Source of the DNA: Bolinopsis microptera
Lineage: Eukaryota; Ctenophora; Tentaculata; Lobata; Bolinopsidae
Direction of reading: 5' to 3'
DNA length: 64,000 bases
Assembly (NCBI RefSeq): GCF_026151205.1
Contig: NC_087084.1
Coordinates: 4,829,538 to 4,893,537, forward strand
The notes beneath the pieces were generated by a model. The model searched no databases. It was not told the origin of the DNA and saw only the letters and a program-made list of their open reading frames with translations. The position numbers and the translations under genes are program-made. Of this stretch, positions 12,411 through 62,851 are shown piece after piece; within the stretch, counting starts at the first letter, position 1, and every line of letters starts with the position of its first letter.

Positions 12411-12742
12411 GGGAAAAATCTTGCTCCATAAGTTGTTGACCAACCGAACATGTAACCTGCCAGAAACCCCTTTGGGGCTGTACCCGGCTCACCGTACACT
12501 ACGTACCATTACTTCGACAACTATTGGCAAAGGCCCAACTCACTTTCGGGCGAGAGTGAAAATCAGTACGAGAGTGAAATCTGTTTCACTCAAATAGTTT
12601 AGGTTTTGTCGCAATAATGGTACGGTTTTCTCTACTTCTTTGGATAATCTGAACTGTCCACATGAGAAATTGACTTGGTTATGGTTTATTTCCCTAGGGA
12701 AATTGTATCAGGGTATGAAGTTTTAGCTTAACAAAAGAATTC

Positions 12743-12893
12743 ATGAATCAGGACTCAAGATCAGGACTCAAGAATCAGGACTCATGATTCAGGACTCAAG
12801 AATCAGGACTCAAAAATCAGGACTCAAGAATCAGGACTCAAGAATCAGGACTCTTGATTCAGGACTCAAGAATCAGGACTCGAGAATCAAGAG
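12743..12893. repeat. 14-bp minisatellite (AAGAATCAGGACTC)
   Basis: About ten tandem copies of AATCAGGACTCAAG with a few variants (CATGATTCAGG, CTTGATTCAGG). An open frame through it is a by-product of the repeat. Confidence 0.9.
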
Positions 12894-13811
12894 GAATAAT
12901 ATACATACGCGACATATTAATATCAGACAGTTCAGCCGTTATCCACTCCATATCAAAAAGCTACATAAAACTTCAAGTCATCATACTATCATAATCACTA
13001 AGTCACAGGGCCGCATTATAGCTGATAAACTAAATGACAAAATAACCTCAGAAAATCCATGTTAGCACGATAAAATACTATCTTAGATAAAATAAAAAAT
13101 AATATTTTTACTTCGAGCTGAAAAATTCCAACCGTCGGATCAAATCGATGCATGAATTGCTTTCAACTACCATGTTATATGAATAATATTTTCAGCCATT
13201 TATTTTCAAACTGCGATATTTAAATAAATCTCCTTTTTAAAACTAAAATACGATTGAATTCCTGAGGGTCACAAGCGTCTTATCAATATCATGAGTATTC
13301 GATACATGCGTCCATATCGGGTTAAAATACGTCTGAACTTCTCAGTATGAACTTATAAAGCATTTGAAATGAGTAAGTTAGCAAATATAAGGTTTTCTCA
13401 AACGTTCTGCCTTAATGCAAATTTATGAGCTGTATGGCCGTATGATACAAATTTAAATACTTGGGTATCTTTATTTTTTAAATTCTTATAAATCGTGTTT
13501 AGTTTTATCTAGATCTGAAGTTATACATATCAAATTTAGTCTAAAGTCGACTAATTCGCATTGAATGAAGCTCAAGGAGGAAATTGATTATTATTTATGA
13601 AAGCAAAATTGTACCCTATAAAATTGTGAACATAAGTTTAAAATATCTGTATCATGAGCAATTTGTATCAAACGGCCATCAGTCTCACACAGTAGATCAA
13701 GTTGCAGTCTTAGACCATTTTAGGCGTTCATTAGCCTCAAGGCGTTCATACTGTTATTTATTCAAGGTTTTACAGTTCTCAATCCCATGTAGAGGGAATA
13801 TAAACTATCTG

Positions 13812-16800
13812 TTATGAGACAATCCTGCTAACTGGTAACACAGCATCACATCCTACCACCCTTGTCTCCCAGTCGTGCTCCCACTTACCTCCCTCTCCTT
13901 CAGGCATACACTCTGCCTTCACCAGCCGGAGTATGTGGCCCTTTTCATACCGGCTGTTACAAATAATGTCCCCTTTCAGGGCCCTGTTCTTCTGACAGGT
14001 CACACTCTTCACGAAGAAGGGAAACTTGTTGTACCTCCTCACGTAGTACGTCTCCAGCTCACAGATACTCATTTCCTTGAGACCCTTGGTTACCCGGTAG
14101 AGGATCTCTGTTCTCTCCACCCGGTTGTAGTAGTTTTCCGGGGTTCCGGTGGATGCGGTCACACCGCTGGGTGTCACGTACCCGTAGTAGAAGGTCATGT
14201 CTTCAGAGGGCTGTCTGGTGTGAATCTTGTTCTTTTTTATGTGTCTGGCAGACCTGGAACGTTTCTTGCGACGAGTCAGGGGACCCTCACCATCGTACCC
14301 GGGGACCTGAAAAACGGTTTAGTTCAACTCTGGTGCCGTCAGAAAGTGTGATATGTTGGAGCATGAAGATATGAACTACGGTGTTTTATCTTGGTGTCGT
14401 CATCATTGACTGATTATCTAATTATGTTGGAATTGAATTAGGCTGGGAGTACGGCCAAAAGATAAAATCCACATTCCGCAAGGAAGCGCACGACAGGCAT
14501 ATAATCCATGTAAATAAAAAATTCTGGAATCAAGACAAGGTTTTTTCAAGGAACTTCAAGTTATTATACCAGTTATACGTATTGATTATATGGATAAAGT
14601 CTCCAGGACTGTCGTAAAATGATGGGATGAAATACATGCAATGTCCTCTAGGATCCTGTAGAAAGGTGATGTTATTAAAATGATAAAAAAGAAATAATCT
14701 TTCATTGTCGCGACAAAAAACCTGTCATCCTTCGTGATAGCGACCAATGTTATCACTCTGTGAGAATGCCAAAGAATGTCTAATCAGTGCATGCTCAAAG
14801 AAGGCATCCCGGCACCACTTTTATTAGTATTACTTTATTTTCTAGGGAAGTACGTGGATATTATGAATATTCCAAGTAGTGACCGGCAGGTTTCTATGAA
14901 GTCCGGCGAATCAAGAGGAGAATGTGGTTGGCATTTCTGAGAAAAGTCGTGAACAAAATTAGGTTGATTATTACCATAAAGTCTAGCTGCAGAATAACCG
15001 GCGAGAAAAACCAGGAAAACTGAAGGAGTCACATGACTAGAATTAGATAGGTAATTCTGGGAAACCTTGTGGGTACGTTGAAGTTCAAGTGGGTACGTTG
15101 TATTGATCAAACATGCGATAGGCTAGTACGAAAAATTTAGAATCATGTCCCAATGTGATGAAATGGTCGAATCTTTAATGTTGAATAGAGGGATTTAAAG
15201 GATTGTGCCTGCATCGAAATAAGTGGCAATAGTTATTTCGTAACGGTCTCGATAGGACCTTAGGGCTTAGACCTGAACATTTAACCAAAAGTTGGTGAAG
15301 AGATCTGAAGAGTATTTTCAGGTGGTGAAATATGATTTGCAACATTTCATTTCACGATGCTTTCAATAATTGGAGCTTGTTTGGTTTTAGTTTAACGTAG
15401 ATGTTTGGCTTATAAAAACGCACAATAAATTCAAATGTATTGACTTCACTTTACTTTACTTTAGGAATCTGAACTCCTCAGAATCAGCTGAGGATTATCA
15501 GCTGTTTTTCAGATACTCGGAAAATGCTAAAGCATACCTTGAGGCTTATGAATGATTATGTTTCAAATAATTTTGAGCGATAGAGCAAAAATTCTTGAAT
15601 GGAGAAATGTTATCGATCACAATTGAAATATTTGACAATTAATTCATTCGAACTTCCATCAAATAAATTCCTTTACAATAGTGCATTTGAAACTACGCTC
15701 TTCTTTTTCTATTGGGTCTATTATTTTAGTATTAGAGATGACAAAGATATCATAGTTAATCAAACTTTGAAGACATTTGTTGAAGGATCCCATTTCTGAC
15801 TTGTACTTGATGTTGGTTTGTGCGTGGTGTGAATTTGCCACCTGATTAAATGAACTTCAGGAGAAATAACTGAAAGTTTAACAATGCTTAAAGAGAAATG
15901 GAGGAATTTGACAAATTTTAGTGTTTGATTTAATTTTGGTAAAACTATCAAAAGTTGAATCTTTGTCGTGGTCGGCTTATCACTCATGTTCGATATCCAG
16001 ACAAAAGAAATTCTCCCACGTTTATGAAGAAGAAAATGAATGATTGCTCATGCTACGAGTAAATTCTGTTTCACTCTTGGACTGTAGGAATGCCAGTTAT
16101 ATATTACTATATTACCTGAGATTCGGCGGAATGACAGGCTGAACGCCGCCCAATAAGTTACATGCAATATGTGATTGCTCGCGTGGTTCAAATAATTCGG
16201 ACGAATGCCCGAATCTCCACAGAATTCTATGGAATTCATCCTTGCAAGGACTGGGACCCTGTTTTTCATTCTGAATAATATTCAAAATCGCGGTTTAATG
16301 ATAGGCTGGAATATAGGCCACTACAGTATATCAAATATTCTATTTGGGTAGGTCTTGACTTCTCGTCCCCCAGGGAATTACTCCCATTCCCTAAAATTCT
16401 TGAACCTGGCTCTTAATCCATGTTAATAATCCACACCATAGTGCATGGTTTTCAATAATTGGAGGTTTCCATCAGTTCTGGGGAACAATCCATCAGTTCT
16501 AGAGAACAATTCTCGATAGAATTTAAACCGCAACTAGCTGCCAACTTAACCGCTGGTTCACCAAAATAAGTTAAAGTAGCATTACCTACCCATGACTCAC
16601 GCACCTAATACCTATACGAAGAAGCGGGAGTAGAACGAGACTAAAGTCGCCTCCTTTAATTCGAAATAATTTTAAACTCCCAAAATTGAAGTTTACAGTA
16701 CCTATTCAACCCTATTGGTCTGTTAGTGTTATTGTGCTACTCATCACTTTCTTATGTTAGTAGAGTACCATGACCACGCGTTATCAAATTTACGTACTCT

Positions 16801-19800
16801 GAACTGACTTAGGGGCCATCTATACTTAGGACGTCCGCCAAAATCGCAGATTTTCAGATCATCCCCATGTCCGGGTTTGTCCGAATTTTCAAAGCCACCC
16901 CCCCCCCCCCCCCCCCCCCTCCTCCCCCGGACGTCCGGATTTCCAGCTGCTTTTAAGAGTAAAAATAAAACCAACTCAAATTCATTGTTAATAAAATTCA
17001 AAGAGTTGACATAAAATTCAAGGAGTTGAAATAAATGGGACTTTTTCGTTAATTCTGCCCAAATTTCCGGACGTCCGAATTTTCAAAAACCACCCCCCTC
17101 CCCCTGTCCGGATTGTCCGAAATTCCAAAATCACCCCCTCCCTAGTTGCCGGACGTCCTAAGTAGATGACCCCTTAATGAATTCTGAATAAAGCTCTATA
17201 ATCGTTCAACAACGTCATTTCCAGTAGAATTGCCCAAACAAGATCAATTCAGTCTAAAAATTGCGCAGATTCTATTAAAAGTGTTACATATTCACATATC
17301 CATAGATGTTTAAATTGAATTCACGGCTCGTTGACTTACAAGTACATATAATTATAATTATATTGTATAGCAAAGGTTCGTAAACAGCTATTACTTAAAA
17401 ATTATTTGTATAATCTAGAATATAGAACGCAGTTTTAGGTAATATCTTACTTGTAGATGAGTCGCCTCAGCGGTGAAAGTTCTGTTCGCCTCTAGCACTC
17501 GGAGAGTTTTCTGCACTCTAACGGGCTCGGTCTGTCTCCCGAGCTTGTTGTATTCTTCTACACAATTTTCTTGGACTAGGTCGTTAGCTGAGAATAAGTT
17601 ACTGGGTTAGGATATGAATAAACTTTCATGAATTTAAAAAATTTTGAAAATGAGTTACTGGGAGTACTATAGTTCTGAAAACGACAAATAAACTGATAAT
17701 GTTTCGTGGTGAATGCCAAAGGACACAAAGTTATGATTTTATCATTAGACATAAATGCTATTTTAAGTTGCTATCCATGACCACCAAAATTTAGCTCCAT
17801 AAAATCATACTCTTCATTTCTTCTGTTATTAAATTACAGGCAGGGATAGGACGATGACTTGGCAAGGGTATATATTATGTAGTAGTTACAGAATTACAAA
17901 TCTTCTGTAGCAATATTACAAACTCGGTTTACCACCCCCTGCATCGAAAATATGCTACCAATAGCGCGAAATGAGGGCTGAAGACCGCAGTTAATAAACG
18001 ATTATTACCCAGTACTACGTCTACCTTGAGGTAATTCCGAGCTGTCTAGCGCGAGGCCCAACTATAATGAGCTTTATGCCGCCAGAAGATACGAGGAATA
18101 ATATTTTTAATTTTAAAACGTTGACCCTGGGTCTAAGTTGAAGTTATGAATGAGCACACGAGCTCATTCGTAAAAGTGCGCAGTACAGATACCTGATTTC
18201 AGTGACATTTCGTAACGAAGATTATTCTAAGTATTTAAAATATTTAACGTCGTAACAATCACGCTTGAGGGCGGTGAGTTTTAAAACCACAATAAAGTAA
18301 AATAAAGAATGCGATGGATTTACACAAAGAAATTTTTAGATTTACTGGCTCAGGTTGGCACGCATTGGTATTTCAAAACCTCAATCTGGACTATCGGGAT
18401 CCACCCAGGATGCTTTGATCGTTTTTCAGATCCATGGTTTAAAAAAAGAGTTAAAGACCCCGCCTTTTTGTGCCGTAGATTATTTCTCCGCAGAAATGGA
18501 TTAGAAACCGCATGGCGCTTGAAATATTTGATTTCAGATTAAGATTTATTATATTATTATTCATAATTCAGACTAGAAAATGAATTTCTGGTGATTAAAT
18601 TGGCTGCTTTGACTTTTTACGGTGTCAAAAGTGTTTCACCAACTCCAAGTTTATGTGTCTGGAATTTGACGTATTGAAATACCAATTTTGACTCTATATC
18701 CACATTTATTCACCATGGGTTTGTTTGTTATTAAATAGTTTTTCATAAATTTTTGGATTTAGATTAATTCGATGTAATGGGTCCAAGTTACTGCGGACAT
18801 AGTTCACTATGTGTTTACCGTGTTTGGGTGCCCATCATATTCTACAGATGGGGGCGATATTTTGAACGATTCTATTTTATATTCATCTATTGCTGTACTC
18901 TGTAAAATTTGAAAAGTATTTAATAAAAAAAATGTATTTTTACGAACAACTTTCCGCTATGATGCAAGTGTCAAAAATGTCATCTATAATTGAGAAAATA
19001 TAAAACTTGACCGCTTTGCCAATGCCAAAAGTAACAATTTGCGGATGGAAATTTATAGGTTGACGTGACTTTTAATTAGTCACAGCTGTAACTGAGGCTG
19101 TTACATTACGATATCTTATAGAATTAGATACATTGTGCACCGTGAGGTGCAGTTAAAACTTTTTCAAGCTCATTATAACTTTATGAGTGAAAATAAATAC
19201 AGTAATTTCCAAGCATCTTTTAAAAATTAGGTGCACAAACACAGACTTCTTTTGTCTCTCAGAAATGTGTTTCTGTGAAAGCCTAGGTTAGTAATAGTAA
19301 GTCAGTAATGGTAAGTTAGTTGTAATTTATAAGGCTGGTCAAGGTGGGACGATGAGACCATCGAAAATTTAAAAAATTTCCTCACGCAATCGCAATTATG
19401 TAAAAATCACACTTTTTACAGCACCAGATTTCTTAACTTTAGAATTAATCTGAAAAGCAAAATGATGTCATTTAGGTGTCGACACACGCACAACGACACG
19501 AGATTTCAATTATAAACCAGGAATCAGTTGTCTTTGATAGAGGCGGCGTAGAGGATACTTTCGTTATCACAGTAATAGCGCTTAAACCAACTAACGTGGA
19601 AGGAAGTGTCGATAGTGGCTTAAGAGCGATGATACTACTATTTAATCACGTAATCTTATCGTAAAACTGAGAGATTGTAATTTATTCACTTATAGGTGTT
19701 TCCGAAAGTCCTTTGAAATTGAATCTTGAGAAATAAAATTTTTAAGCTCGATATTTGTAAATATGGTCCCGGTCTGGCACGGTGCCCATATCTTAAATCT

Positions 19801-20642
19801 GAACGGTTTCCCCCGGGAAAAATACCTTAATCGGGATTCAGGGACTCCACCCTTCCAATAACACGTGTTTCTAGAGTCACTTCTCAGTTATCTTGGTAAT
19901 TGAATTTCCCGTCCAATTAGGCTCCAAATTTTGTAGAGGACGTGGTCTGTAATTCAAATTAGGATTGAACGTACGGGACATTTCCTGGTCATAAGAGGTG
20001 GAGCTAGCGTGCCAACCTAAGCCGGTTTGGAATTTCCAAAAAGCCTGGCTGATTTGGGGTCCTGGCTGAATAGGGCCTGATTGATTGGGGACCTGAGTGG
20101 AGACAGAACTCGGCCTTAGAAACAATTGGTAATGGAAAATATTCCCTTTGTCGACCAAGTTTATTTACCAAGATTACCAATCTTACGAATTTGGTAAGCC
20201 ATAAGTATCTCCTCCTAATCTAAACAAGAAAATTACCATACACCTATAACAATTATTACAAATACAATGATCAAATTAACTTTGCAGGGTGCAAATCCTT
20301 AGTCAATGATGATGTCAATGCTGTACATGAGTGAAACTTTATCCACACTATAATGTGTTTTAGGTCGAATGTTTCGAGTTTTCTTGGGACTGATATTTTA
20401 ATTGAACCAAAAACATCAAACCTAAAATTGTGGCCTGATTTTATTAGACTTTACTTCAAAACTACGGGGAAAAAGTTTTACAATATGTACGTGATTATAA
20501 AACATTTCCCACCATATTCCCCACACCACTACACCTCACGTTATAAATAGAACTACTAACCAGTTATAGTGGATGACCTGGGTCTCCTCGAGTAGACAGC
20601 AGGAGCAAGCACCGCGAGCAGTTGTAGGATCAATATTTGTAC
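13812..20642 (-). CDS. Secreted cystine-knot ligand, trunk/PTTH-like or IL-17-like; three exons, first exon missing
   Basis: Exons joined by phase: 20561-20642, 17451-17587 and 13812-14306, 237 codons plus stop. The first encodes a hydrophobic signal core (ILILQLLAVLAPAVYS). The next is a propeptide with one Cys (ENCVEEYNKLG). The last opens with a polybasic RRKKR, a likely furin site, then a mature part of about 150 residues with five Cys: SIC, FPFFVKSVTC, DIIC, KAEC and a final VVGCDAVLP. The 'FP-x-x-V-x-x-x-x-C ... C ... W-x(5)-V-G-C' spacing is that of the trunk/PTTH and IL-17 folds, where the last Cys is normally part of C-x-C; here the second Cys is Ala. Exon junctions agree in phase (0, 1, 0). 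The exon with the start ATG was not found; the signal exon begins in phase 0 after an acceptor at 20643. Function as an extracellular signal is inferred. Gene and domain confidence is good, family choice is open. Confidence 0.7.
14400..16808. other. Intron of the ligand gene, with one MITE copy
   Basis: No further exon is recognised. Open frames at 14835-15110 and 15599-15987 lack domains. A deleted copy of MITE family A lies at 16112-16155. Confidence 0.4.
16112..16155. mobile_element. MITE family A, shortened copy 1
   Basis: TTACCTGAGATTCGGCGGAA then ATGACAGGCTGAACGCCGCC and CAATAAG. Matches the copies at 31977, 37029, 37816 and 40535 but lacks the middle section. Confidence 0.75.
16809..17177. 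mobile_element. TTAA-associated MITE with poly-C core
   Basis: The left end TTAGGGGCCATCTATACTTA (then GGACGTCCG) is the inverse of the right end CGGACGTCCTAAGTAGATGA (then CCCCTTAA). Internal GGACGTCC palindromes repeat, and a run of about 26 C residues followed by a C/T-rich stretch lies at about 16896-16929. The TTAA-like ends suggest a piggyBac-type non-autonomous element. Confidence 0.65.
17588..20560. other. Intron of the ligand gene; no confirmed exon
   Basis: Mostly AT-rich. A minus-strand open stretch at about 19880-20096 after an acceptor has exon-like composition (rich in Pro, Gln, Trp), but its phase does not fit between the flanking exons, which already join cleanly. Confidence 0.4.
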
Positions 20643-22789
20643 CTGAAATATTTAGTCATTACCCGCTGAAACTTGTTACCGATGCATTTCGAACAATGTA
20701 GCAAAGCAGACAGCTTTTACAGACTCCTCCTCAGAGGAGTAATGACTCTGCTCTTTACCATTCGACCCAACCCGGATTGAGATGACCTTTGTTGTTCCTA
20801 AGCCGATCAATATAATGACTCAAGATTCCTCATTCCCATAATGGCCAAGATTGATTACTATTAGGATCAGTTTTCATCGCTGACTTCACATCTTAGCGAT
20901 TTACAAAATAGCTTGAATACCATTCAATTAGCCAAATAAGGAGGAAACCCCAATTAAATCAGTCATTCCATGTCCGTGTACTGCACCCCAACAAGCCACG
21001 ACACGAGAGGGTCTATCTTAAATCCAAGACCAAAGGATATGGCGCGACTTTACCAACAACTTGCTGGTCTACCCTTGGAGAGAGACTTTGTCAATTCTTG
21101 GAGAGAGGGGTGGTACCTATCACGCCAAGCGTCAGTGTTTCCCGCGAGTCACGCCATGATCTAGCCTTTCTAGCTGGAACTCTCCTGGAAACTGTCTATT
21201 TGAGGGAGGGGCATGTTGGCATGATCTCGAGTAAGAGTGTCTGTTTGCCTCAAAGAAATTTCGAGAAGCTGGGTAAAGACCAGGTATGCCTGGGTAAAGA
21301 TCGTACCGTCTGTAAACAATGTTGGAGAGGTCATGTTGTATGATTATCACAATCAGCAATAATGATCGGCTGGAAATGTGATTTGATCTGATTGAATTTC
21401 ATTAAATACAATGAAACTACCGCTACCCGCATAAGGTCGGTTAGGATGGGATTTGATTGTTTGCAGCAAACTTCAGTTACTTAGAAAACCGTTTTGCAAC
21501 GAAGTAAACGATCTTTAAAATAGCAGGGACGACGAATACTTCGATTGGCAGATATCTCCTGCAAAACACCGTGAAAAACTAGGCATGCTCCTCGAATGGT
21601 TCTTGGATTGTTTAAATTTATACAATTCGGTTTGAATTCATAAATTAGTATTTGAGAACTTGAGCACTAAGGAGGTAACACTCTTCACGCCCCAGTTAGC
21701 ATGCCGAGAACATAGGATCCCGTAATACCTGCTAAACTGGGTTACCGGCTAAACTGGACTACCTGCTAAACTGGCAATCTCCGAACCGGCTGAAAGCAGG
21801 CACCGAAGAAATGTTTACCTGAGAAGCTACCACACTAAAAAACGAGGACAGTGCTGAATATCAAATTAAATGAGGGTTAAATTTCAACAGAAAGAGAAGT
21901 TTTTAACACTGAAAACAGTTTAATCCCTTACAAAATTGCGGTTCCATCATACTGGAAAAAAAAACGTGGACCAGAAGTAACCTTAAACTCGATAATACCG
22001 TCATCCAATTACTGTACTATATAAATGATAAAATTAACAGCCTTAAATTCTCTTCTGCAGAAAGACTTACCCTCATGTTCAATAAGATTACTTCCTTGGT
22101 TGGATATCACCGATGGTGTGAAAGAAGAAAACAGATCTGTGACGAGATGCAAAAAATGAGATCAACTTGTCTTATAAGCACGCTTATATATAAACACAAA
22201 CAGGAATTCTATTTGGCACGAAGTACGATGAAGAAAGCAATACCGATGCGGTAGGTGTACTGGGGAGGTGGCGGGAGAGAGCTGGGCCGGCCTCAACGTG
22301 AGGCAGCTCGTCACGTGACAAATCACGTGACCAGATCAACAGTGCACGTGGGCAGCTCTAGCTGGTCACGTTACTCGCCCTCGCTTCCTCTTGAGCTGAC
22401 ATTACGTATGCTTTAATTAATATGGGACCGTCTCTTGGTGACGGAGTTTGGATCGCAAAAAAGTCAGATCCGGTAGTATCTCTTACGGGGAAGGGGGCGG
22501 TAGTAAGCATCGACGTCATCATGAACAAAAAAAAAATGAATTGACAGAAATGATGGCGTCATGGGGTTGGTTAACAAGGTATATGTTATATATTTTACAG
22601 AGGGTCTAGGCGGGTCATTACAGGTGAGACAGGGTATAACGGCGGTCCCCTTTGCGCTGTCTCGCTAGCCAGACACAGTCGCTGTGGAGTGCCTGTACTG
22701 GCACGTGCCGGAACACGATACAGCGCAGATCAGTGGCATTAGTCGATATACCCTGCCCCACTCTCCGCTAGTAGTACAGGACCAAGCCC
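20643..22789. other. Upstream region of the ligand gene; CACGTG cluster at 22310-22375
   Basis: The missing first exon of the ligand gene may lie here, but I could not fix it. Near 22310-22375 there are four CACGT(G) sites in 65 bp: GTCACGTGAC, ATCACGTGAC, TGCACGTGGG and GTCACGTTAC. Short direct repeats of GCTAAACTGG occur at about 21731-21775. Confidence 0.4.
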
Positions 22790-22794
22790 CGCGG

Positions 22795-23745
22795 CACTCC
22801 CCTCTCCAACTATCCGCCACATAGCCACTAGGGCACTTCCTTAATCTCACTAACTATCAGCCACATAGCCACTAGGGCACTCCCCTCTCCAATTATCCGC
22901 CACATAGCCACTAGGGCATTCCCTTAACCTCACTTACTATTATAGCAACATAGCCACTGGGGCACTCCCCTCTCCAACTATCCGCCACATAGCCACTAGG
23001 GCACTCCCTTAACCTCACTAACTATTATAGCAACATAGCCACTGGGGCACTCCCCTCTCCAACTATCCGCCACATAGCCACTAGGGCATTCCCTTAACCT
23101 CAATAACTATCAGCAACATATCCATTAGGGCCTCACTAACTATCAGCAACAGAGCCATTTGGACACTCCCTGAACCTCACTAACTATCTGCAACATATCC
23201 ATTAGGGCCTCACTAACTATCAGCAACAGAGCCATTTGGACACTCCCTTGACCCACTAACTATCAGCAACAAAGCCATTAGGGCACTCCCTTAACCTCAC
23301 TAACTATCAGCAACAAAGCCATTAGGGCACTCCCTTAACCTCACTAACTATCAGCAACAAAGCCATTAGGGCACTCCCTTAACCTCACTAACTATCTGCC
23401 ACAAAACCACTAGGTTCCCTTGCCAACTATGATCCGCCACAGCTAGCCACAAGAATCCCTCTCCAACTAGCAGCCACATAGCCACCAACTATCAGCCACA
23501 GAGCCACTAGGTTCCCTCGCCAACTTTCAGCCACATAGCCACCAACTATCAGCCACAGAGCCACTAGGTTCCCTCGCCAACTTTCAGCCACATAGCCACC
23601 AACTATCAGCCACAGAGCCACTAGGTTCCCTCGCCAACTTTCAGCCACATAGCCACCAACTATCTGCCACAAAACCACTAGGTTCCCTCGCCCACTTTCA
23701 GCCACATAGCCACCAACTATCTGCCATGCAGAGCCACTAGGTTAC
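22795..23745. repeat. Minisatellite with 44-bp and 57-bp related periods
   Basis: Repeated blocks such as CACATAGCCACTAGGGCACT and ACTATCAGCAACAAAGCCAT with a 44-bp period for most of the array, changing after about 23480 to a 57-bp period (AGCCACTAGGTTCCCTCGCC). The long minus-strand open frame through it simply reads the repeat. Confidence 0.9.
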
Positions 23746-23850
23746 AATACAGTTAATACTCTAATAGAGTTATAGGCATCATCAAATTATAGTGTACAGG
23801 TGTACGTTAACTAACCAACACAACGTCATAATCATATTGTCAATCCAAGC

Positions 23851-23871
23851 ATAATAATAATAATAATAATA
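23851..23871. repeat. (ATA)n tract, probable 3' tail of the retrotransposon
   Basis: Seven ATA trinucleotides lie downstream of the minus-strand ORF2. CR1-group elements end in short tandem repeats instead of poly-A, so this is the likely 3' terminus. Confidence 0.6.
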
Positions 23872-24034
23872 GGATTATGGCCACATGGCCATCTCGACAA
23901 AACTTGAAACCCAACTGCACTCTACGCTATTGCAGTTCGCACAATATTATAATCAAAAAGAAAAATGTTCCTATCCGGAACATTTAATGATTAATTATTT
24001 TTAGGACGTTAACATGTAGTTCTGAATTTAACAA

Positions 24035-26959
24035 TCAAGAAACATTGATTCCTCGGTATTTAGCAATCAATGGGTTATTAGACATGAAATGTGCATATGA
24101 ATCATGCTCACATGTATTTATTTTTGACATCAAGGTTTCGCTGAGTTCCCAGAAGTGACCCTTTGACGATGCTCCACTCGCTATCAGTTCATTTTTATAA
24201 CATTGAAGTCGAGCTTTGAATGCGTCTACTGAACTGGCTTCTTTAACCGAACTTGGTACTTTGTTCCAGTAATTGGCAACACGGTTACTGAGGACCTGAT
24301 TTCCTCTTTTATCTTTTAGGATCTTGGTACCGCTACGTGATATCCTGAAAAGATCTTGTCCATAGTCCACTTTACCCGTCGTTATTTTAAAGGTTTCAAT
24401 AAGATCACCCCTCATACGGCGCTCCAGTAGTGTTGTTAACTGGAGGATTCTCAGTCTCTCATCGTATGGTAGGATACCAATCCCGTCGATTATTCGTGTA
24501 AATTCTCTCTGAACGTCTTCTATCTTCTTAATAGTCCTCCAGTTTCCGTGCTCTGCTGGTAGATTCCACACTTGCACAGCGTATTCGATGTGTGGTCGAA
24601 CTAGAGTTCTGTAGACATTTAGCATAACAAATTTGTTACGGCAGATCAAACTTCGTTTGATCCAGCCTATAACAGACTTTGCTTTTTTCACGGACTTATC
24701 TATATGATCACTCCAGTCCAGGTTTCTGGTAGTTAGAACTCCAAGATCCTTTTCTGCCTTCACTTGGGGGAGGCGTTCCCCATTCATGAAGTACTCGTGC
24801 ATTGGATTGTTACGCCCAATATGTAGTACCTTACACTTGCCATCCTTCACATTGAATCTTAGGAGCCATTCCTTCTCCCACGCATTGAGTTTCAGTATAT
24901 CATCTTGTGCAACACTGTGCTTAGCTGTGCTCGTTACTAGCTTAAGATCGTCCGCAAAGAGTGATACGAAGCTCTCAATTCCATCAGGGAGATCATTTAT
25001 GAAGAGCAGGAAGAGCAGGGGGCCCAGCACGGTTCCTTGAGGGACCCCAGATGTTACAGCAAACACTCTAGAAAATGATGATCCAACCCTGACGCGAAAT
25101 GTTCTTCCTGTTAGAAAGTCTTCCACGACTGCAAGGGTGTTGCCAGATATTCCAAAGGATTGCAATTTTCTCAGCAATCGTTTGTGTGGTACAGAATCGA
25201 AAGCCTTCTGAAAATCGAGATACAGTATATCAGCTGACCCGTCCTTCTCTAGTATCTCACTGACAATGTCCATACATTCCAGTAGGTTCGAGACGCAGGA
25301 TCTTTTTGGTAGGAAACCGTGTTGTTCATTCACAATCATGAGGGATACGTGAGCTAGAATATGGTTCCTTAAAAACCTCTCAAAGATCTTGGAAAGAACG
25401 CACGTTAGGCTAATAGGGCGATAATTGCTGGCTTGGGATTTATCCCCCTTTTTATGCAATGCAGTGACATTTGCCTGCTTCCAGATTTCGGGAATCTTTC
25501 CCTCGTTGTAGCATTTTTGGAACAGTGCTGTGACTGAATCAGCAAACTGTTTGTTTTCGGCTAGTGTTTTCAAAAGCTTGGGGTGTATATCATCAGGTCC
25601 AACGGACTTCCAGATGTTAACTTTACGAAGTTGATCTTGAACTTCACTTGTATTGAATTTCAGGTCAGGAATCGTCTCCTTTGCGCTGTCTCCGGGTAGT
25701 GGGTCAGGTATTGAGGCCTGATCCTCCTTTACAAACGTGCTCTCAAAGAAAATCCCAAGTTGGTTAGCCATATCATGTGCTGAGTGGAGTTCATCCCCAC
25801 TAGCATCTCTGATTCCAGATATTGCAGCCCTAATCTTGCGCTTGGAGTTCATATAGCTGTAGAAAGCTTTTGGATTTATTTTTAGCTGGGCTGCTGCTTT
25901 ATTCTCATAGCATATCATGAGCTGCTGTTGCTTCTTCTCGTAAGCACTCTGCTGATGTAGTGCATGATTCAGGTTTTTTGATGTCGGGTCGTTTTCAAAA
26001 ATAGACCACAGTTTTTCTTTTAGCTTCCGTGCCTTGATTAGACATGGTTTGTCCCAGACCGATCGTGATTTTATTGCACCTGCACGATTTATCCTCAATT
26101 TGACGACTGGAACAGCTTCAGCAATGGTGTTGGCATTGGCCTGAATCAGATTCCAGTGCTCTTCGATAGTCAAGTCATGATTGGCACTCCATTGCAGCGG
26201 CCCTGCTGTATCAATGATTAGATCTTTGTTTGCTTTTGACCAATTTTTCTTCTGTTGAGTCACATACTCATCATGGTTAGCAATTGACCACTTACTGATA
26301 ATTCCCACATGGTCTGATTTTCCCAGCGGTGCGGTTATTTGAACTTCCTGAAATATGGCGGGGTCTGAAGTCATAACATTGTCAAGAGTTGACGATTGCA
26401 CTGTTGTTAAAACCTTCCTTCTGCGAGTTTTAACATCGTCTCCGATAACCCAACTGAGATCATGTTTTGCGAAAAAATCAAGATAGCACTGTTGAATCAG
26501 GAATTTTTGATTAATTGAATTATTCGGACATTTAACTACACCTAAATCCCACACAACATCAGGAAGATTGAAATCTCCCATCATGATTAGTTCGGTATTA
26601 GGGGCTAGATTTTCAATCGCTACGGACAGATTAGATAACATTGATTGACACTTATCGATTGTTAATGAAGGGGATCGGTATATAACAAATAATGCAATAT
26701 CAATACAATCAGAATTTAGCATGACACATATGCAATCAGGTACATTTATTGTTACATTGTGAGATTGGATAGAATCATGCACATATATACAAGAACCACC
26801 ACCTTTCCCCGTTAATCGATCTACTCTATACAGCCTAAAGTTCGCTAATGCTACCTCTGCATCATACACATCTGCACTGAACATTGTTTCTGTAATTCCC
26901 AAAACCTTGCAGTCGCTGGATTCGGCTACAATTTGCAGTTCACTGATTTTATTCTTCAA
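24035..26959 (-). CDS. Retrotransposon ORF2: APE endonuclease and reverse transcriptase
   Basis: At least 974 codons. The endonuclease half shows LGITETMF, GDFNLPDVVWD and the terminal SDH (KSDHVGII). The reverse transcriptase shows NYRPISLTCVLSKIFERFL, QHGFLPKRSC, DILYLDFQKAFDSVPH, SGVPQGTVLGPLLFLLFIND and the catalytic FADD (SLFADDLKLV), then EKDLGVL and a C-terminal region with WNKVP of the CR1/Daphne type. The frame stays open upstream of the given start through FYSNANDLKNKISEL and into the end of ORF1, without an ATG; the first in-frame ATG would remove part of the endonuclease. Translation may therefore start by reinitiation or frameshifting after ORF1 (inference). The enzyme would nick target DNA and prime cDNA synthesis there. 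All catalytic motifs look intact. Confidence 0.93.
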   Translation of the reverse strand: MKNKISELQIVAESSDCKVLGITETMFSADVYDAEVALANFRLYRVDRLTGKGGGSCIYVHDSIQSHNVTINVPDCICVMLNSDCIDIALFVIYRSPSLTIDKCQSMLSNLSVAIENLAPNTELIMMGDFNLPDVVWDLGVVKCPNNSINQKFLIQQCYLDFFAKHDLSWVIGDDVKTRRRKVLTTVQSSTLDNVMTSDPAIFQEVQITAPLGKSDHVGIISKWSIANHDEYVTQQKKNWSKANKDLIIDTAGPLQWSANHDLTIEEHWNLIQANANTIAEAVPVVKLRINRAGAIKSRSVWDKPCLIKARKLKEKLWSIFENDPTSKNLNHALHQQSAYEKKQQQLMICYENKAAAQLKINPKAFYSYMNSKRKIRAAISGIRDASGDELHSAHDMANQLGIFFESTFVKEDQASIPDPLPGDSAKETIPDLKFNTSEVQDQLRKVNIWKSVGPDDIHPKLLKTLAENKQFADSVTALFQKCYNEGKIPEIWKQANVTALHKKGDKSQASNYRPISLTCVLSKIFERFLRNHILAHVSLMIVNEQHGFLPKRSCVSNLLECMDIVSEILEKDGSADILYLDFQKAFDSVPHKRLLRKLQSFGISGNTLAVVEDFLTGRTFRVRVGSSFSRVFAVTSGVPQGTVLGPLLFLLFINDLPDGIESFVSLFADDLKLVTSTAKHSVAQDDILKLNAWEKEWLLRFNVKDGKCKVLHIGRNNPMHEYFMNGERLPQVKAEKDLGVLTTRNLDWSDHIDKSVKKAKSVIGWIKRSLICRNKFVMLNVYRTLVRPHIEYAVQVWNLPAEHGNWRTIKKIEDVQREFTRIIDGIGILPYDERLRILQLTTLLERRMRGDLIETFKITTGKVDYGQDLFRISRSGTKILKDKRGNQVLSNRVANYWNKVPSSVKEASSVDAFKARLQCYKNELIASGASSKGHFWELSETLMSKINTCEHDSYAHFMSNNPLIAKYRGINVS

Positions 26960-27036
26960 GTCATTTGCATTTGAATAAAAAACTTTCAGAAAATGACTAG
27001 CATTGTTTCTTAGTTTAGAGTTATAACTAGAGATAG

Positions 27037-28116
27037 CTAATAGGTCGCAACGTTGCCGGAGTTTTCCGATTCCGTACCACCTGTCAATAGTCCCTTGGAA
27101 CCACTGTCCTTCGTCCGCTCCCGTCTTTTTTGCCGCGCCTCGTAGTTCGCCCTTCTTTCAGCCTGGGATAAGTCTGGATTTATCCAGTAGTCCTCACCAT
27201 CCTTGAGAACCTTGCAGCCATTTCCGTACTTGTGCTTGCTACGGGCAAGATCTGGTGTCGCAAGCACAACAACAAGGGGTCGTGGCTTTGTTCTTTCCTT
27301 ATTAGAGCCAGACCCGAGAGGGGGACCAGCTCTGTAGCAGCGTTCTATCTGGTCGGTTGTGACATCTAGAACCGTGGCAGCTATCAGCTTATCGGCTGCG
27401 ATCCTGTCCTTTATCTCTGTTAGTGAGCTCTCGGGAACAGTAGTGATCACGACGTTCCTGATACGCTTCTCTTTGTCGAACACATCAGCTTCCTGTCGAG
27501 CTGTGGTCTGAGATACAATCTCAGACTGGCTTTCCTTAAGCGCAGATGCTAAACTGTTCTCGAAACATTTCTTCGTCTCGCGGCCAATGATACTTTCTGT
27601 ATTCTTCACAACGTCAGCAAATGTTTTTGTCATTTTGTCTGTTTTGACTATCGTGGAGACAGTTTCAGTCATAATCTCTTTCAGGTGTTCTTTAACGACC
27701 TGCTTCACTTCTTTCTTCATATCTATACCTGATACATCAAGATCTTGCTTCCAGTTTTCCAAAACAGTCTTGACTTCACCAACAACGTCACTATAGGTCC
27801 CAATTAGCGTATCTGCTCGGGCATTCAAGCTCTTGTTTTCCGTTTGCAACTCTCTGATTATGAGCTGCAAATCTTTGATCTCAGCCGATACTCGCACATT
27901 CTCCTTTACAATGTAAGTGTATGATGTAGCACCCTTATCAGTGATAACAGGCAGAATGCTTGACTTCATGAGGTTGAAAATCTTCAGCTTTGAATTATCA
28001 AACGCCTTTTGACTGTCTTCCTTCGATCTGTTGCTTTTATTTATAGTCGGGAAACTATCCAATATATCGGAAATTTCAGTGTAGGCCGTCTGAGCCTTGG
28101 CTATATAGTCGGGCAT
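27037..28116 (-). CDS. Retrotransposon ORF1: coiled-coil RNA-binding protein
   Basis: 359 codons from the ATG at 28116. The N-terminal half is helical and charged with heptad-like Leu/Ile spacing (IKDLQLIIRELQTENKSLNA), suggesting a trimerising coiled coil. The second half (RNVVITTVPESS ... RPLVVVLATPDLAR) resembles the RRM-like domain of ORF1 proteins, and the end is basic (YWINPDLSQAERRANYEARQ). It would coat the element RNA in the cytoplasm. Its stop overlaps the open frame of ORF2. The assignment rests on position before ORF2 and the fold pattern. Confidence 0.8.
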   Translation of the reverse strand: MPDYIAKAQTAYTEISDILDSFPTINKSNRSKEDSQKAFDNSKLKIFNLMKSSILPVITDKGATSYTYIVKENVRVSAEIKDLQLIIRELQTENKSLNARADTLIGTYSDVVGEVKTVLENWKQDLDVSGIDMKKEVKQVVKEHLKEIMTETVSTIVKTDKMTKTFADVVKNTESIIGRETKKCFENSLASALKESQSEIVSQTTARQEADVFDKEKRIRNVVITTVPESSLTEIKDRIAADKLIAATVLDVTTDQIERCYRAGPPLGSGSNKERTKPRPLVVVLATPDLARSKHKYGNGCKVLKDGEDYWINPDLSQAERRANYEARQKRRERTKDSGSKGLLTGGTESENSGNVATY

Positions 28117-28207
28117 CAAGTTACAAGTACAAGGGGTGCAGTACTGTTAGTGTTAAAACGAAGAGAGAGAAATTTGACGCAAAACAAAAACAGATTTTCA
28201 GAACTGC

Positions 28208-32130: not shown

Positions 32131-33179
32131 CAAAATAAAGAAATAAGGTAAACTATTCGGTAATCTGTTGATGGTCACTTAATGCACAGTTAAGGCACAG
32201 TAAAAATCGAGTTTCTATTTGACCACACCGTGTTTTAATAATCACTTAGCCTCTGATACACACTCCACAAACGAAGGCGACTAGGTGCTGCCTAGGTTTC
32301 TAATTGCTAATGTTATTCATGTAATCAAATTACATCAAAAAGGTCTCTGGTCTGCAGCATTTGTCTCTAAGAGATGGCAAGGGACTCTTCCTCTTACCAT
32401 CATACAACCTGCTTCAATTGCCATTCTTCGCGTTCGTTGCTAGATTTCATTCTTTAGTAGTAAAGTAGTAATAATCGAAATATATTTAAATTCTGAACCC
32501 TTGCCTGTGAATCGATAAATACTATAATTCCATTTAATTTATTGGGGTATTTAAAAAGTATACTTAATGCAGGCCAACAAGACGAATTAATCCTCTTCGC
32601 GTTTTATTGTATTAAATGTTATTTAGATTTTACTTTTATTTTTAAATCAAGAATAGAAGTTTAGCCACTTTTTATTCTGTAACAGATTCTGCAAAGATTT
32701 GGCACGGTGCCGCTTTATTTGTGGCACTGAGAGCATACTCTTTCAGGGATTAGACAAATGCACTGGACAGAATTCATGAGCGGGACTGCGAGCATACTCT
32801 TTTCTTTCACCAAATTGATGCGATATTATTGAAAAGTTGAAATAAGCTGCATCAGGACAAAAATGCTGGTTTGAATACAATGACAATCTTTGGATCTGAC
32901 TCTAAATTTGAAATGTTGCTGATGCCACCACAGTCTAGTATTAGTATATAGCTGAGTCGGAAATCTTACTGCGTCCACGTAACGTACGTGGAGCAGCAAA
33001 ATGATTGTCAATAATGGAAGCTTGCGCCGTTTCCATGGTAACGCTGCAGTGTGCACGTGTAATGTTATAACGCGCGTATAACGCGCGCCTTCATATCTTC
33101 ATCGCGGTTCGTGGTTACAAATTAAAATAATTTAATGAGTTCGACCGTCGCATACGGAATCCAGATGGAATAACAACAA
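32131..33179. other. Upstream region of the PDE1 gene
   Basis: No other gene is seen. A short tandem ATAACGCGCG/TATAACGCGCG lies at 33067-33088, about 100 bp before the PDE1 start codon, and may be in the promoter or 5' UTR. No TATA box can be assigned with confidence. Confidence 0.4.
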
Positions 33180-36100
33180 ATGGGTTCATGCTGCAGCAAT
33201 GTATGTGTATTCACTCACGATGCGGTGAATGACTTAAAATGGAAATATGACAACTTTTCTTCTCCAATCCGATCAAGAGGCTGCCTTTGCTGGAAAAAGG
33301 GAAGCAAAATTTCTCAAAGGACTGAGGATAACTCTCAATTTACTCAAACCGAAGAAGTCGTTTTCAAGCTCATGGAAAAGCCAAATGTGCAGTTGAAGCT
33401 ATTGAGTAATGAAATCGATAATAATAATAAAAGAAACAGAAATTGGTCAACAGAAGCGAAGCACTCGCATATTTCTCTTGTATCAGTATGTCAACGTGGA
33501 AGCTCTACTGTTGGTAACACTAGATCAATCGAAGAAGTTTTGGCAGTGATCGAGCGAGTTCAAAATCTGTGTAATAAGGCAAGTTTGCAGGATCAACTGT
33601 CACTACTCTGTACTGTAGGTTTTCTCAGAGAATACTGTCTAATGCTCAATGATGATACAATCGGTGGAAGAAAAAAGTCCGATAGCAGTGTTACTGACGA
33701 CAACGCTCGTTTTTGGGTTACTGCATACGATTACAGTGGAAAAAATAAAGACCACGGTATTACGAAGTTTAAGAAGATAGCCATGGCCGTTAAAACGGCG
33801 CGGGTATTTACCCGTATGACCAGATCATCACTCTTATCACATTCTTCTTCTACAGAAAGTATTTATGAACCGGTCGGCTTGACAAATCAATTCCGTCAGT
33901 TCCTCGATAAAAACCTGCTCAGTTGGAATTTTGATCAGTTGTTGTTTGACAAGCTGACAAATAATCATGGTTTATCGTTATTGTTTCTTAAGATTCTGCA
34001 GGCAACGGATCTGTTTAAAGAGTTCAAGATAAACAAAGAAAAGATGAACAAATTTTGTTTGGCAGTGGAGAGAGGGTATCAACAGCATAACAATCCTTAC
34101 CATAACGAACGACACGGAGCAGATGTGTTACAAACTGCTTATTTTATCATCGTAGATACCAAGGTTAGATCTTTAGATATCATTTTCAAATTATTTGTTT
34201 TAGATGCCATTCCATTAGTTAGGGTTAAAAAGTTCTTTTCAAAGTTTCAAAGCAGGTGCCCATTTACTCCAAAGTTGACTAATACACATTTTTTCGATGT
34301 ATAGCAAATAATACTTTGTAACCTCGTTGATGGAACGGAATACAAATGATACATATCCATGACGTACCAATGAAATAGATTTAGTTATCATCAAGTATCA
34401 ACCACCCAGATCAAAGATTGGCTGAGTAGCCTGGAGTTACTTTCCCTCCTCTTCGCAGCTATGATACACGATTTGGAACACACGGGAACTAACAACATTT
34501 TCCACACGCAGTCTTCTTCAAGTCTATCGCTGCTCTACAATGATAAGTCGGTGTTGGAAAATCATCACGTTAGCAGGTTCTTAATTAATTTTAAACGTAG
34601 ATATCTTCCATAGCAGAAAATCCAGCTGTGGTCCCGATGTTACTAGTTTATCGTTTACTTTCTTAAGTGGGCCATTTTCTTAGTCTTCGATCTTAGCTAT
34701 TCTTGCAATTGTTTTTATTGATATATTAGTCATGTTAGTGATGATATTTATCAACTGTATACAGGGCTTACATACTCATGTCTGATCCAGAGTTAAACCC
34801 GTTCGAGGCGATGTCAAAAGCACAGTTTCAGAGCATGAGACAAATAGTTGTGGACTGTGTTCTGGCTACTGACATGGCCCACCACTTTAACCAGGTTATA
34901 AATCTATTTATAGAATTGGTGGACTCATTATAATCACTAGCAGGAACCCTAAAGTGGTGTCAAGACTCAAAAGACTAAAATAATTATTACCTATTTAATT
35001 CGCGTTTTTGACACCACTTGGGGGTCCAAATTTTGGGCTCTAAAACTCCTATTTCTTGTCCAATTTTTTATTTTTTCATGCTGATTTGAAGGCCATTAAA
35101 GCATTTGACCCAGTCAAAAAAGTTTCAGTTGTATATCTTTTACGGTTTTTGCGGAAAGTCGTGTTAAAGTTGATGCCGTGGTGTCAGTAAAATGGCACGG
35201 ATAAATAAATATATATATATCGTCTCGCTTTATATATAGTAAGATAAACCAAACTGATTTTAGTTTGATTAACTTAAATGACATAATGCTAAAGACTTTA
35301 GCCTAAAGTACTCTCACGAATTTCAGACTATTCGGGAAGTCAGACTGGCATAAATATAATTACACTTCTTGAAATGGCTAACTTGATATAAGTTTGATTT
35401 ACTCATGAAGTTATACTATGTACTACGATATTATGTTTTTTTGTTTGGTTGAATAATTTTCATTTAACTGATTGGGATCTGACATTTTGTCATGATCTTT
35501 CTAATTTCTAATTTCTAATACTACCCCTTCATCACTCATGATCATAGGTAACCACTCTCAAGAATTCCTTGATCGACCTCTCGCTGATTGAAAGACAGGA
35601 CGTTATGAACAGCATTTTGCACTGTGCCGATATATCTGGACCCGGTAAATGCTGGAACATTCATGAGAATTGGACTCTGCTACTCATGCAGGAATTCTTC
35701 GCACAGGTAATACAGCTCCTTCGGAGAGTTATCGTTATACATAATGATATTTGTCTCGATGAGATTTGTAACGCTAGTTAATCTAGATGTCAGACACAAT
35801 AATTGTAGAAGTATGACAAAAATTAAGAATTAAAATTTGTATTCGAAAACAAACCATACATCATAAATCACCAATCATTGCACACCAGGGTGACGAAGAG
35901 AAAAAATTGGGTCTTCCCATCTCCCCACTCTGTGACAGACAAACCACCAACATCCCAGAGTCTCAGGTCGGATTCATCACCTACATCACAACGCCCGCCT
36001 TCACGGCACTCGGTAACACCATAGACGCTATCCTCAGAGAAAAGGAAGAGCGAGAGTTTCTGGAATTCTCTACGTCCTGGGTTAATACTAAACAAAGAAG

Positions 36101-38475: not shown

Positions 38476-41400
38476 ATGCTCAACGTAGCACAAAGCATAC
38501 CGACGAATATAGTCAACCCATTTAAAGCGTACACCCTTGACGATGCATATTCAAGATTCAACAGGGTCTATTTGTTTGTTTTTTCCATCATTTGTGGTGC
38601 CGTGGTTACTTTGAATGACTATGCTGGTAAGGGGAAGAGTTTAAATTAATTTTTCACCTAAAATCAGCAAAAATCAGCTTTTTGAGGTTAAATTTTGAAT
38701 AAATATTCAAAAATCGTACTGCTAATGCTATTGTTTCCTCCTTACATCGTTTCAACAGTTACAGTTAACTTTATATTAAAAGTTAGAAGCTAACAATTAC
38801 CCCGACTCAGACGTGTAACTTGTTTCATTTTAAATATTTTTCTTCCTTGTTAACAGTTTTTGGCTTTTATAAAATAAGGGTCGTCTATAATAACCATCCG
38901 ACAGGAGAAACAATCGAGTGCCACGGATTCGACATTTTCGCGCTACCCTTCCACGAAAACTACTGCTGGACTCAAGGAATCTACACTCTTCTAGAAGCTT
39001 ATGATATTCCTAATAACAATAGGCAGATTCCCTACCCAGGGATTATACCAGAGCAAACACCCTGCTTCGATTTCACGTGAGTGACATCATCATGACAACG
39101 GGTAATATCCTGTCCAAACCCAGGATACATAATATGAAGACTTTGTTGTAACTTTGTATGAAAAGTATTTGAAATATAAGTAACTAAGTTTAACTAACTG
39201 TCTAAAACATTAAATTTAAGAAGCTGCTGATCTCAGTCCTTACTTTTAGAGACCACGAGAATTGTTCTAAGCGACAAAAATATTAAATACTTCTTTTTAA
39301 GTTTTTATATTGTTTATGTTATATAGTAACAAATATCAAACTGAAGAAAGGACTGGCGTTGACCGTTTAGGCAGAAAATTATAATTCACCCTCCCAGTGA
39401 ACTTAACCATAATATGATGTTAACTATCCATATAATCCCTCTGTTTAGGTACTCCAACGGTACGAAGTACGTGTGTCCGAACGCGAGCTCCATCCTCCCT
39501 CTTACGAGAGTGTACCACCTGTGGTACCAGTTTATATCGTTCTACTTCTGGGTTTGTGCAGTCGTGTTTTATGTGCCCTATTTGGTGTTCCGTAACTCTG
39601 ACATTGGTACTCTCAAACCAGTGGGTGAGTTAACATATGATATTAAATTTACAAAACCAACGTGATTCGCGAATTCAGTATTGACGCGTCAATACTGAAT
39701 AGTTTTCAGAACATTTTGTTTCTGGGCACTGACTAAAACAAACTGTGTGCTCATGTTCGTACGAAAATTTCAGGCTAGGTTCGACTTATGAGGCTCCGCC
39801 GAGAAGTAAAGGTACTTTAACAATTATAATATCATCCTAAAACTTGAAACTGAAGGAAAACAGTACAGCTCCATTTACTATAATCACCACGTTTCAGTGC
39901 AAATGTTACAAGATCCTGGTTTAAGCAGCGAGGATGAAGAAAACCAGAAAATAGAGAAAGCGAGCAGATGGCTCGCAACAAGACTTTCAACTTTCCTCAA
40001 AGCTAAGGGACCTCTCCAGTGGTTCCTGGTCAGACACAAGTTCTTCTTTATCGTGGTGTTCGATAAACTTGCTAACTTGGCTGTGGTGGTGCTGGTCATA
40101 TACGCCACGGATAAGGTTTGTCTATTGTATGGTTTTAAAAAAACTCAGATTATCATTATTATTTGATGGTGGCCATCATGCTTTTATTAACAGTTATGAA
40201 GATGTCTAGGTTGATCTGGTCATGATCATCAAATTGATTCTTATGGTAATCAACTTTATCGCAAGTGACACACATTTTGATAACACTATAACAGAATCCT
40301 GAAAATCACTTCAATATCTAAAGATCTAAGCTCATAAAAGTTAAAACCCCCTCTCCAGATGTTTGTGATAACTTCCTACACAACCTACGGCTCAGACTGG
40401 CTCATGTCCCTGTCAGGTGACCACCCTTCGTACAAGGACAGTCCACTTGACAAGCTCTTTCCTAAGATGGTAGCTTGTGAGGTTACCAAGTGGGGAACTA
40501 CGGGACTAGTTAACGAAGCAGGTGAGTACTGAGTTTACTGGGCCACGCTCAGCCTGTCATTCCGCCTAATCTCTATTCCGCCTAATCTCTAGATGTTTAT
40601 TATTATTCGTTAATTAACTAATCATTGATTTGTGCAGGAATGTGTGTGTTGGCCCCGAATGTAGTTAACTCCTACTTCTTCCTAATTTTCTGGTTTGTCC
40701 TGGTTCTGGCACTGATTGTTAACGCGTTTGCAGTTCTTTTTTCCACCACCTCTCATCTGTTTACGTTAGGTTTGTGTTCTGTTGGATACTTTATTTAGAA
40801 CATAACCTGTGACAATGGCAGAGCAATTATGTTCTATGCTTGAAACTTGAAAAAAGATTTTCGTCAGGATATGTGAACATTAGAATTAAGACTGCACTTG
40901 ATTTCGGAGATTTTGAAACTACATTTTCTTATAGGAAGATGGAAAGCACTGACGGCTTCAACGTTTATGAAAGGATCAGCACAAGAAAAATGGGTATATT
41001 TCACTTCAGGTAACATCAATTTGTATATTTCGTATATTTCACATATTTCATATATTTCATATATTTCACATATTTCACAAATTTCTGAAATACATAGATC
41101 GGTCCCGGAAATTTGGGACAGTATGATTTTTTCAATTTTCGTCGGGATTTTGGTTCCTAGTACCTCAATTTGGTTTCAAACAATCATCAATTAACTGAAT
41201 AATTGGTCTCTGGGCAAAAATTCTAACCAATCTGTCAAATTTGTATTCAGAAATTTTCATATTTGAAAATGGGACAGAATTTGGAAAATATGAATTTTCG
41301 TTTTGTTAACTTTTCTGCAGTGATCGCTTCCTCCGATCGAAATGAAACTTCCAGCACCTCAATAGTGTCATATGCCACCTATAGATGACTGACTAATTGA

Positions 41401-44796: not shown

Positions 44797-62851
<18,055 letters not shown>

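Follow-up and report, generated by a model that had tools for sequence, protein, structure and literature searches.

Precursors of the trunk/PTTH hormones are built of a signal peptide, a propeptide, a basic cleavage site and a C-terminal cysteine-rich core, and in Bombyx PTTH the knot cysteines are paired 17-54, 40-96 and 48-98, the third and sixth (III and VI) being the partners of one disulfide. In IL-17, serines at positions I and IV replace knot cysteines, and the II-V and III-VI disulfides are kept. According to the excerpt available of PMC9071555, Noggin, Noggin-like, Trunk and PTTH are cysteine-knot proteins that resemble one another and influence BMP or Torso signalling. Ctenophore signalling peptides with recognised counterparts in other animals are few: a Mnemiopsis trunk was called the first of them in 2019 (excerpt of PMC6660194), and the excerpt of PMC9004410 adds the phoenixin and nesfatin precursors and cites the ctenophore trunk report. 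Analysis of a 64,000-nucleotide stretch of the genome of the ctenophore Bolinopsis microptera (the window; C13:4829538-4893537) revealed on its minus strand what is, as read from the DNA, a real four-exon gene with the design of a secreted ligand, belonging to a two-gene family. The reading favoured here, with moderate confidence, is that this window gene is a working gene encoding a prohormone-like precursor, and that the C-terminus of its mature part most likely forms a reduced cystine-knot domain of the type found in noggin, trunk and PTTH; the family would probably consist of trunk/noggin-type ligands with IL-17-like traits and an unusual reduced core. An earlier note on this DNA had supposed an early animal lineage, which the lobate ctenophore source bears out. 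A glutamate-receptor ligand domain of this genome scored 422 bits over about 260 residues against ML032222a, the ML numbers being names of Mnemiopsis genes; among the best 60 of 261 matches, the next different receptor, 4zdm, reached 240 bits and those after it 103 or fewer.

The four joined exons encode a 239-residue precursor consisting of Met-Arg and a hydrophobic run ending in AVYS, a propeptide, the RRKKR site and the mature part (Table 1; all positions are those of the window unless marked otherwise). Three of these exons had been joined in phase in the earlier note, and they were located where it had placed them, with fitting phases, GT donors and CAG acceptors. The first exon, which had been given as missing, is indeed absent from those three, and a start was found: four ATG-to-donor candidates (phase 0, donor GTRAG) were present at 20700-23900, of which only the ATGAGG exon has the donor GTAAGT, the remaining three having one weaker donor in common. 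The completed gene model, together with a paralogue of the same design, supports the furin-processed secreted ligand that had been proposed.

The mature part contains exactly the five cysteines counted previously (residues 66, 88, 100, 117 and 137), FPFFVKSVTC conforms to FP-x2-V-x4-C, and the last cysteine is followed by D-A and not by x-C, both as had been described. The tryptophan spacing had been miscounted as W-x(5)-V-G-C; counted from the first tryptophan of KWEHDWETRVVGC, it is W-x10-C, a spacing in common with PTTH and noggin. When the mature part was shuffled 300,000 times, 3 shuffles matched a cysteine/proline pattern derived from PTTH and noggin and loosened to fit the window gene; with W-x10-C added to the pattern, none of 300,000 did. 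Across 139,492 bases read in six frames (the window and fetched loci, which overlap in part), the complete pattern was confined to the window gene, aside from its own copies in loci L001, L008 and L015.

Whole-genome searches took in the 264.65-Mb assembly (232 pieces) exon by exon and were not exhaustive. With the core as the query, one weak locus (expect value, E, 1.2), on the same contig at a distance of 1.5 Mb, was returned besides the core itself. Reading around this locus brought out a further exon, containing WEHSTELVNTGCQA, and the joined piece retrieved the window gene at a whole-genome E of 2e-5 (35% identity over 83 residues). In this paralogue, a hydrophobic N-terminal exon is accompanied by an acidic propeptide, an RLKRR site and a five-cysteine core, and the cysteine order, W-x10-C and the C-x-A ending are those of the window gene. 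The exon with its start codon was looked for and not found, and three such searches of the own genome with the proteins of the window gene and the paralogue gave no third copy. The same order, the same C-x-A and the same lost pair in the paralogue argue against the five-cysteine layout being a product of sequencing error or decay.

Alignment with PTTH and noggin shows cysteines I, II, IV and V, but neither III nor VI, in the two ctenophore proteins; the fifth occupies the place of IL-17F Cys107, where noggin also has a cysteine. In an alignment of three IL-17s, IL-25 has no cysteine in that column, and Ser50 and Ser90 (positions I and IV) are invariant. Successive cysteines are separated by 21, 11, 16 and 19 residues in the window gene and by 21, 13, 15 and 21 in the paralogue, the gaps being 22 (I-II), 7, 5, 41 and 1 in PTTH and 22, 5, 7, 14, 7, 12, 1 and 1 in noggin. 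Taken by position, the I-II gap is 21 in both ctenophore genes, 22 in PTTH and noggin, and 21 from Ser50 to Cys72 of IL-17F; the II-IV gap is 11 in the window gene and 13 in the paralogue, PTTH and noggin; and the gap from IV to the extra cysteine is 16 in the window gene, 15 in the paralogue, 14 in noggin, and 16 from Ser90 to Cys107 of IL-17F.

Under the favoured reading, the gene would be transcribed, about the first 20 residues of its product would be cleaved off by signal peptidase, and a furin-type protease would cut after RRKKR to give a secreted mature protein of 148 residues, the last 80 or so forming the reduced growth-factor domain. Pairing of I with IV and of II with V is predicted because these four cysteines are kept; the III-VI pair is absent, and the fifth cysteine would be free to link two chains into a dimer. 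Such a dimer would act extracellularly, and its receptor, by analogy, may be a Torso-like tyrosine kinase or, less probably, a protein of the IL-17-receptor type.

Table 1. Features of the window gene (window positions) and location of its paralogue (contig coordinates)
Feature	Position	Strand	Basis or remark
TATA box (TATATAT)	22186..22192	-	Pattern match and read position; 116 bases above ATG
Exon 1, ATGAGG (Met-Arg), donor gtaagt, phase 0	22071..22076	-	Inferred from sequence
Exon 2, hydrophobic core and end of signal peptide; following intron phase 1	20561..20642	-	Signal peptide recognised by eye
Exon 3, propeptide carrying a single N-glycosylation motif (NRT at residue 64); following intron phase 0	17451..17587	-	
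Exon 4, end of propeptide, furin-type site, entire mature part and stop codon	13812..14306	-	
Furin-type site RRKKR	14259..14273	-	Read in sequence
Mature protein, 148 amino acids, five cysteines	13815..14258	-	
Cysteine core C-x21-C-x11-C-x16-C-x19-C (then D-A), with FP-x2-V-x4-C and W-x10-C	13848..14063	-	
Polyadenylation signal AATAAA	13757..13762	-	50 bases below stop
Paralogue, seven exons, 276 amino acids in one open frame	C13:6340350-6343847 (L011, L009)	+	Contig coordinates

About 2 kb upstream of the gene start lies an element resembling a long interspersed nuclear element (24041-28146, minus strand), with a frame of about 1040 codons that encodes endonuclease and reverse transcriptase domains and is immediately preceded by a frame of 369 codons. 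Intron 3 contains, amid similar G-rich pieces, 22 consecutive G on the minus strand (16898-16919).

Kinship with the described ligands was assessed with profiles in 18 comparisons, each with 2000 shuffles in which the cysteine positions were fixed and unscored shuffles were counted as lower. The joint PTTH and noggin profile gave the window gene 7.8 bits, a score reached by 3/2000 shuffles, as against 86/2000 for the profile of IL-17A, IL-17F and IL-17E, so that the window gene leans to PTTH and noggin by this test; the paralogue leans to neither. As a yardstick from two known relatives, noggin was recognised on PTTH at 2/2000 and PTTH on noggin at 3/2000 (mutual scores of 10.8 and 11.0 bits), the IL-17 profile was at 53/2000 on noggin and 55/2000 on PTTH, and the PTTH and noggin profile was at 478/2000 on IL-17F. 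Searching with a profile of the two ctenophore genes, the scores of IL-17F, IL-17A, PTTH, noggin and IL-25 were reached by 24, 34, 106, 1101 and 1116 of 2000 shuffles, respectively. Pairwise alignment, again with 2000 shuffles each, gave best p values of 0.03-0.07 (local for PTTH; local and global for IL-17F), with no signal for noggin (p 0.3-0.6) or for global alignment to PTTH (p 0.4). Taken together, the sequence comparisons lend modest support to kinship, which is likely, though unproven, with more than one candidate for the nearest branch.

That the open frames line up by chance, or that the gene is dead, is extremely improbable, and both readings were rejected on the exon joins, the paralogue match and the coding score of exon 4. 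Codon use was scored against a yardstick of six receptor frames, the controls being stop-free stretches of matching length drawn at random from the rest of the window. The score of the whole of exon 4 (0.185 per codon) was reached by none of 1092 control stretches, which overlap heavily because such long stop-free stretches are few. The 86-codon core alone (262/2000 controls), exon 2 (323/2000) and exon 3 (175/2000) are not separable from background by codon use, which speaks for chance; the G+C content drops from 0.53 in exon 4 through 0.49 in exons 2 and 3 to 0.36-0.41 in the introns. Every splice site and phase fits, and the paralogue, with its E of 2e-5 and matching design, is stronger coding evidence than codon use. 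A ctenophore-only secreted cysteine-rich protein, with a knot-like spacing acquired by convergence, is rather unlikely, and several results speak for it. No family was returned for the window gene by Pfam and NCBIfam searches, Noggin and IL17 included; sequence searches of PDB, in which the protein and the two-gene profile served as queries and E values up to 10 were admitted, gave chance-level matches and no cystine-knot protein; the paralogue did no better than shuffles with the PTTH and noggin profile (1174/2000) or the IL-17 profile (626/2000); and two AlphaFold predictions made without an alignment gave no usable model (predicted local distance difference test, pLDDT, 35.3 and 36.1). All of these weigh against the favoured reading, as do the correction of 3/2000 to about 0.03 because 18 comparisons were made, the single-sequence profiles on the window gene (PTTH weak at 32/2000, noggin not discriminating at 327/2000), the weak profile-profile comparisons (PTTH and noggin, E 0.069, 8/200 column shuffles; IL-17, E 0.2, 49/200), and the paralogue's FPFIKISWTC, which keeps P-x7-C and departs from the exact motif with Lys for Val. 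On the paralogue, the single-sequence profiles were at 1478/2000 for PTTH and 1422/2000 for noggin. The low-pLDDT models can neither support nor refute a cystine knot; both place strands to each side of the second and third cysteines, which was not counted as evidence. Against convergence, the cysteine gaps, a proline seven residues before cysteine II, W-x10-C and a furin-type site before the core coincide in two genes, and the PTTH and noggin profile on the window gene was reached by only 3/2000 shuffles.

The two genes could also be divergent IL-17s, that is, dimeric cytokine-like ligands for an IL-17-receptor (SEFIR) protein, a reading that is improbable although several results point to it. 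The sole Pfam-A match of the paralogue is IL17, below the cut-off of 24 (core, E 0.0082 and 17.0 bits; trimmed core, 0.0077 and 17.1; whole protein, 0.049 and 14.5), and for the core this is about as strong as PTTH against Pfam Noggin (E 0.0088, 16.3 bits). In addition, IPVQEERPILKISHGC is similar by eye to VPIQQETLVVRRKHQGC of IL-17F, IL-17F and IL-17A had the fewest shuffles reaching their scores with the two-gene profile, and SEFIR domains were reported in B. microptera (excerpt of PMC11797021). However, the window gene has no IL17 match and its IL-17 profile score was reached by 86/2000 shuffles, IL-25 was not singled out by the two-gene profile, nor the paralogue by the small IL-17 profile, and IL-17 has a III-VI disulfide absent from the ctenophore proteins and lacks their cysteines I and IV. 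Six-frame searches of the own genome with IL17 and SEFIR gave no match, and a Noggin search was also empty, neither gene having a Pfam Noggin match; the controls were equally silent, and therefore these searches are not proof of absence. The model-based profile check suggested in the earlier note came out divided, with no Pfam family for the window gene, a PTTH and noggin profile that few shuffles equalled, and an IL17 match of the paralogue below the cut-off. Whether the window gene or its paralogue is the Bolinopsis orthologue of the reported Mnemiopsis leidyi trunk-like peptide is evenly balanced; this identity would place the finding in a family and a phylum already described together, and would be compatible with the favoured reading. 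Six-frame searches with Bombyx PTTH and the Noggin family gave no other good candidate in the genome, though they missed both genes too; the reported peptide is said in the excerpt of PMC6660194 to match bilaterian trunks directly, whereas the PTTH match of both genes here is not strong, and it could be a third gene overlooked by the exon-by-exon search. With PTTH as the own-genome query, a stretch broken by stops came up in two copies (E 0.23) and was put down to chance.

The ligand had been placed between the trunk/PTTH and IL-17 patterns, which holds for the cysteine layout and finds weak support as ancestry. That the two-gene family is genuinely related to trunk/PTTH/noggin and to IL-17 alike, its half-knot (I-IV, II-V) being complementary to that of IL-17 (II-V, III-VI) and accompanied by an IL-17F-type cysteine, is an unlikely proposition. 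If it were true, the cystine-knot hormones of animals and the IL-17 cytokines would come from one ancestor predating the split of ctenophores from other animals, and different disulfides would have been lost along different lines from it. A joint origin of trunk/PTTH and IL-17 was not found in the titles and abstract openings among the literature matches listed. The new bearing on the origin of these families claimed previously is weakened, and the phyletic claim is not new, because a trunk-like peptide of Mnemiopsis leidyi was already published in 2019 (by the excerpt of PMC6660194). What may be new are the paralogue pair and the altered cysteine layout, in which both genes have lost the same disulfide; a gene pair with an intact hormone design and a consistently altered knot would help to relate the trunk/PTTH/noggin and IL-17 ligands.

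The rest of the window contained, all on the plus strand, two exons at 38787-39659 that match innexin weakly (PF00876, short of the cut-off), cyclic-nucleotide phosphodiesterase exons (PF00233) at 33174-34610, with a later frame to 35778 that by eye is perhaps their continuation, and two similar exons at 57330-57614 and 59661-59957, the first of which matches the CAP family and which suggest a tandem duplication. Long simple or tandem repeats were found at 47444-47968, 60185-60670, 61494-61892 and 12740-12900, three of which give repeated-letter open frames that are not genes.

Compared with Bombyx PTTH (PDB 5aoq), both ctenophore genes, as read from sequence, have the putative signal peptide, propeptide, basic cleavage site and C-terminal cysteine core of the trunk/PTTH type, and the window gene has hP-x-[FWY]-[VIL]-x4-C before cysteine II and W-x10-C before cysteine V. 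Both differ from PTTH, with its six knot cysteines and terminal C-x-C, in that III and VI are missing, one cysteine is added and the ending is C-x-A, and the proteins have no database-level match to PTTH. Noggin (PF05806, PDB 1m4u) resembles them in the motif, the gaps, W-x10-C and the extra cysteine after IV, and differs in having 9 cysteines in its C-terminal core as against 5. The ctenophore proteins have a furin-type site, which noggin is not known to have, and they give no Pfam Noggin match. With IL-17 (PF06083; IL-17F, PDB 1jpy) they have in common P-x7-C before cysteine II, and the window gene's C-x21-C and C-x16-C have the spacing of Ser50-x21-Cys72 and Ser90-x16-Cys107 in IL-17F; the paralogue's PF06083 match, at most 17.1 bits, lies below the membership threshold. 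IL-17 has cysteines II, III, V and VI with serine at I and IV, whereas I, II, IV and V are the cysteines found in the ctenophore proteins, which lack III and VI. The Mnemiopsis leidyi trunk-like peptide (PMC6660194, excerpt), compared by description alone, comes from the same phylum and belongs to the same claimed family.

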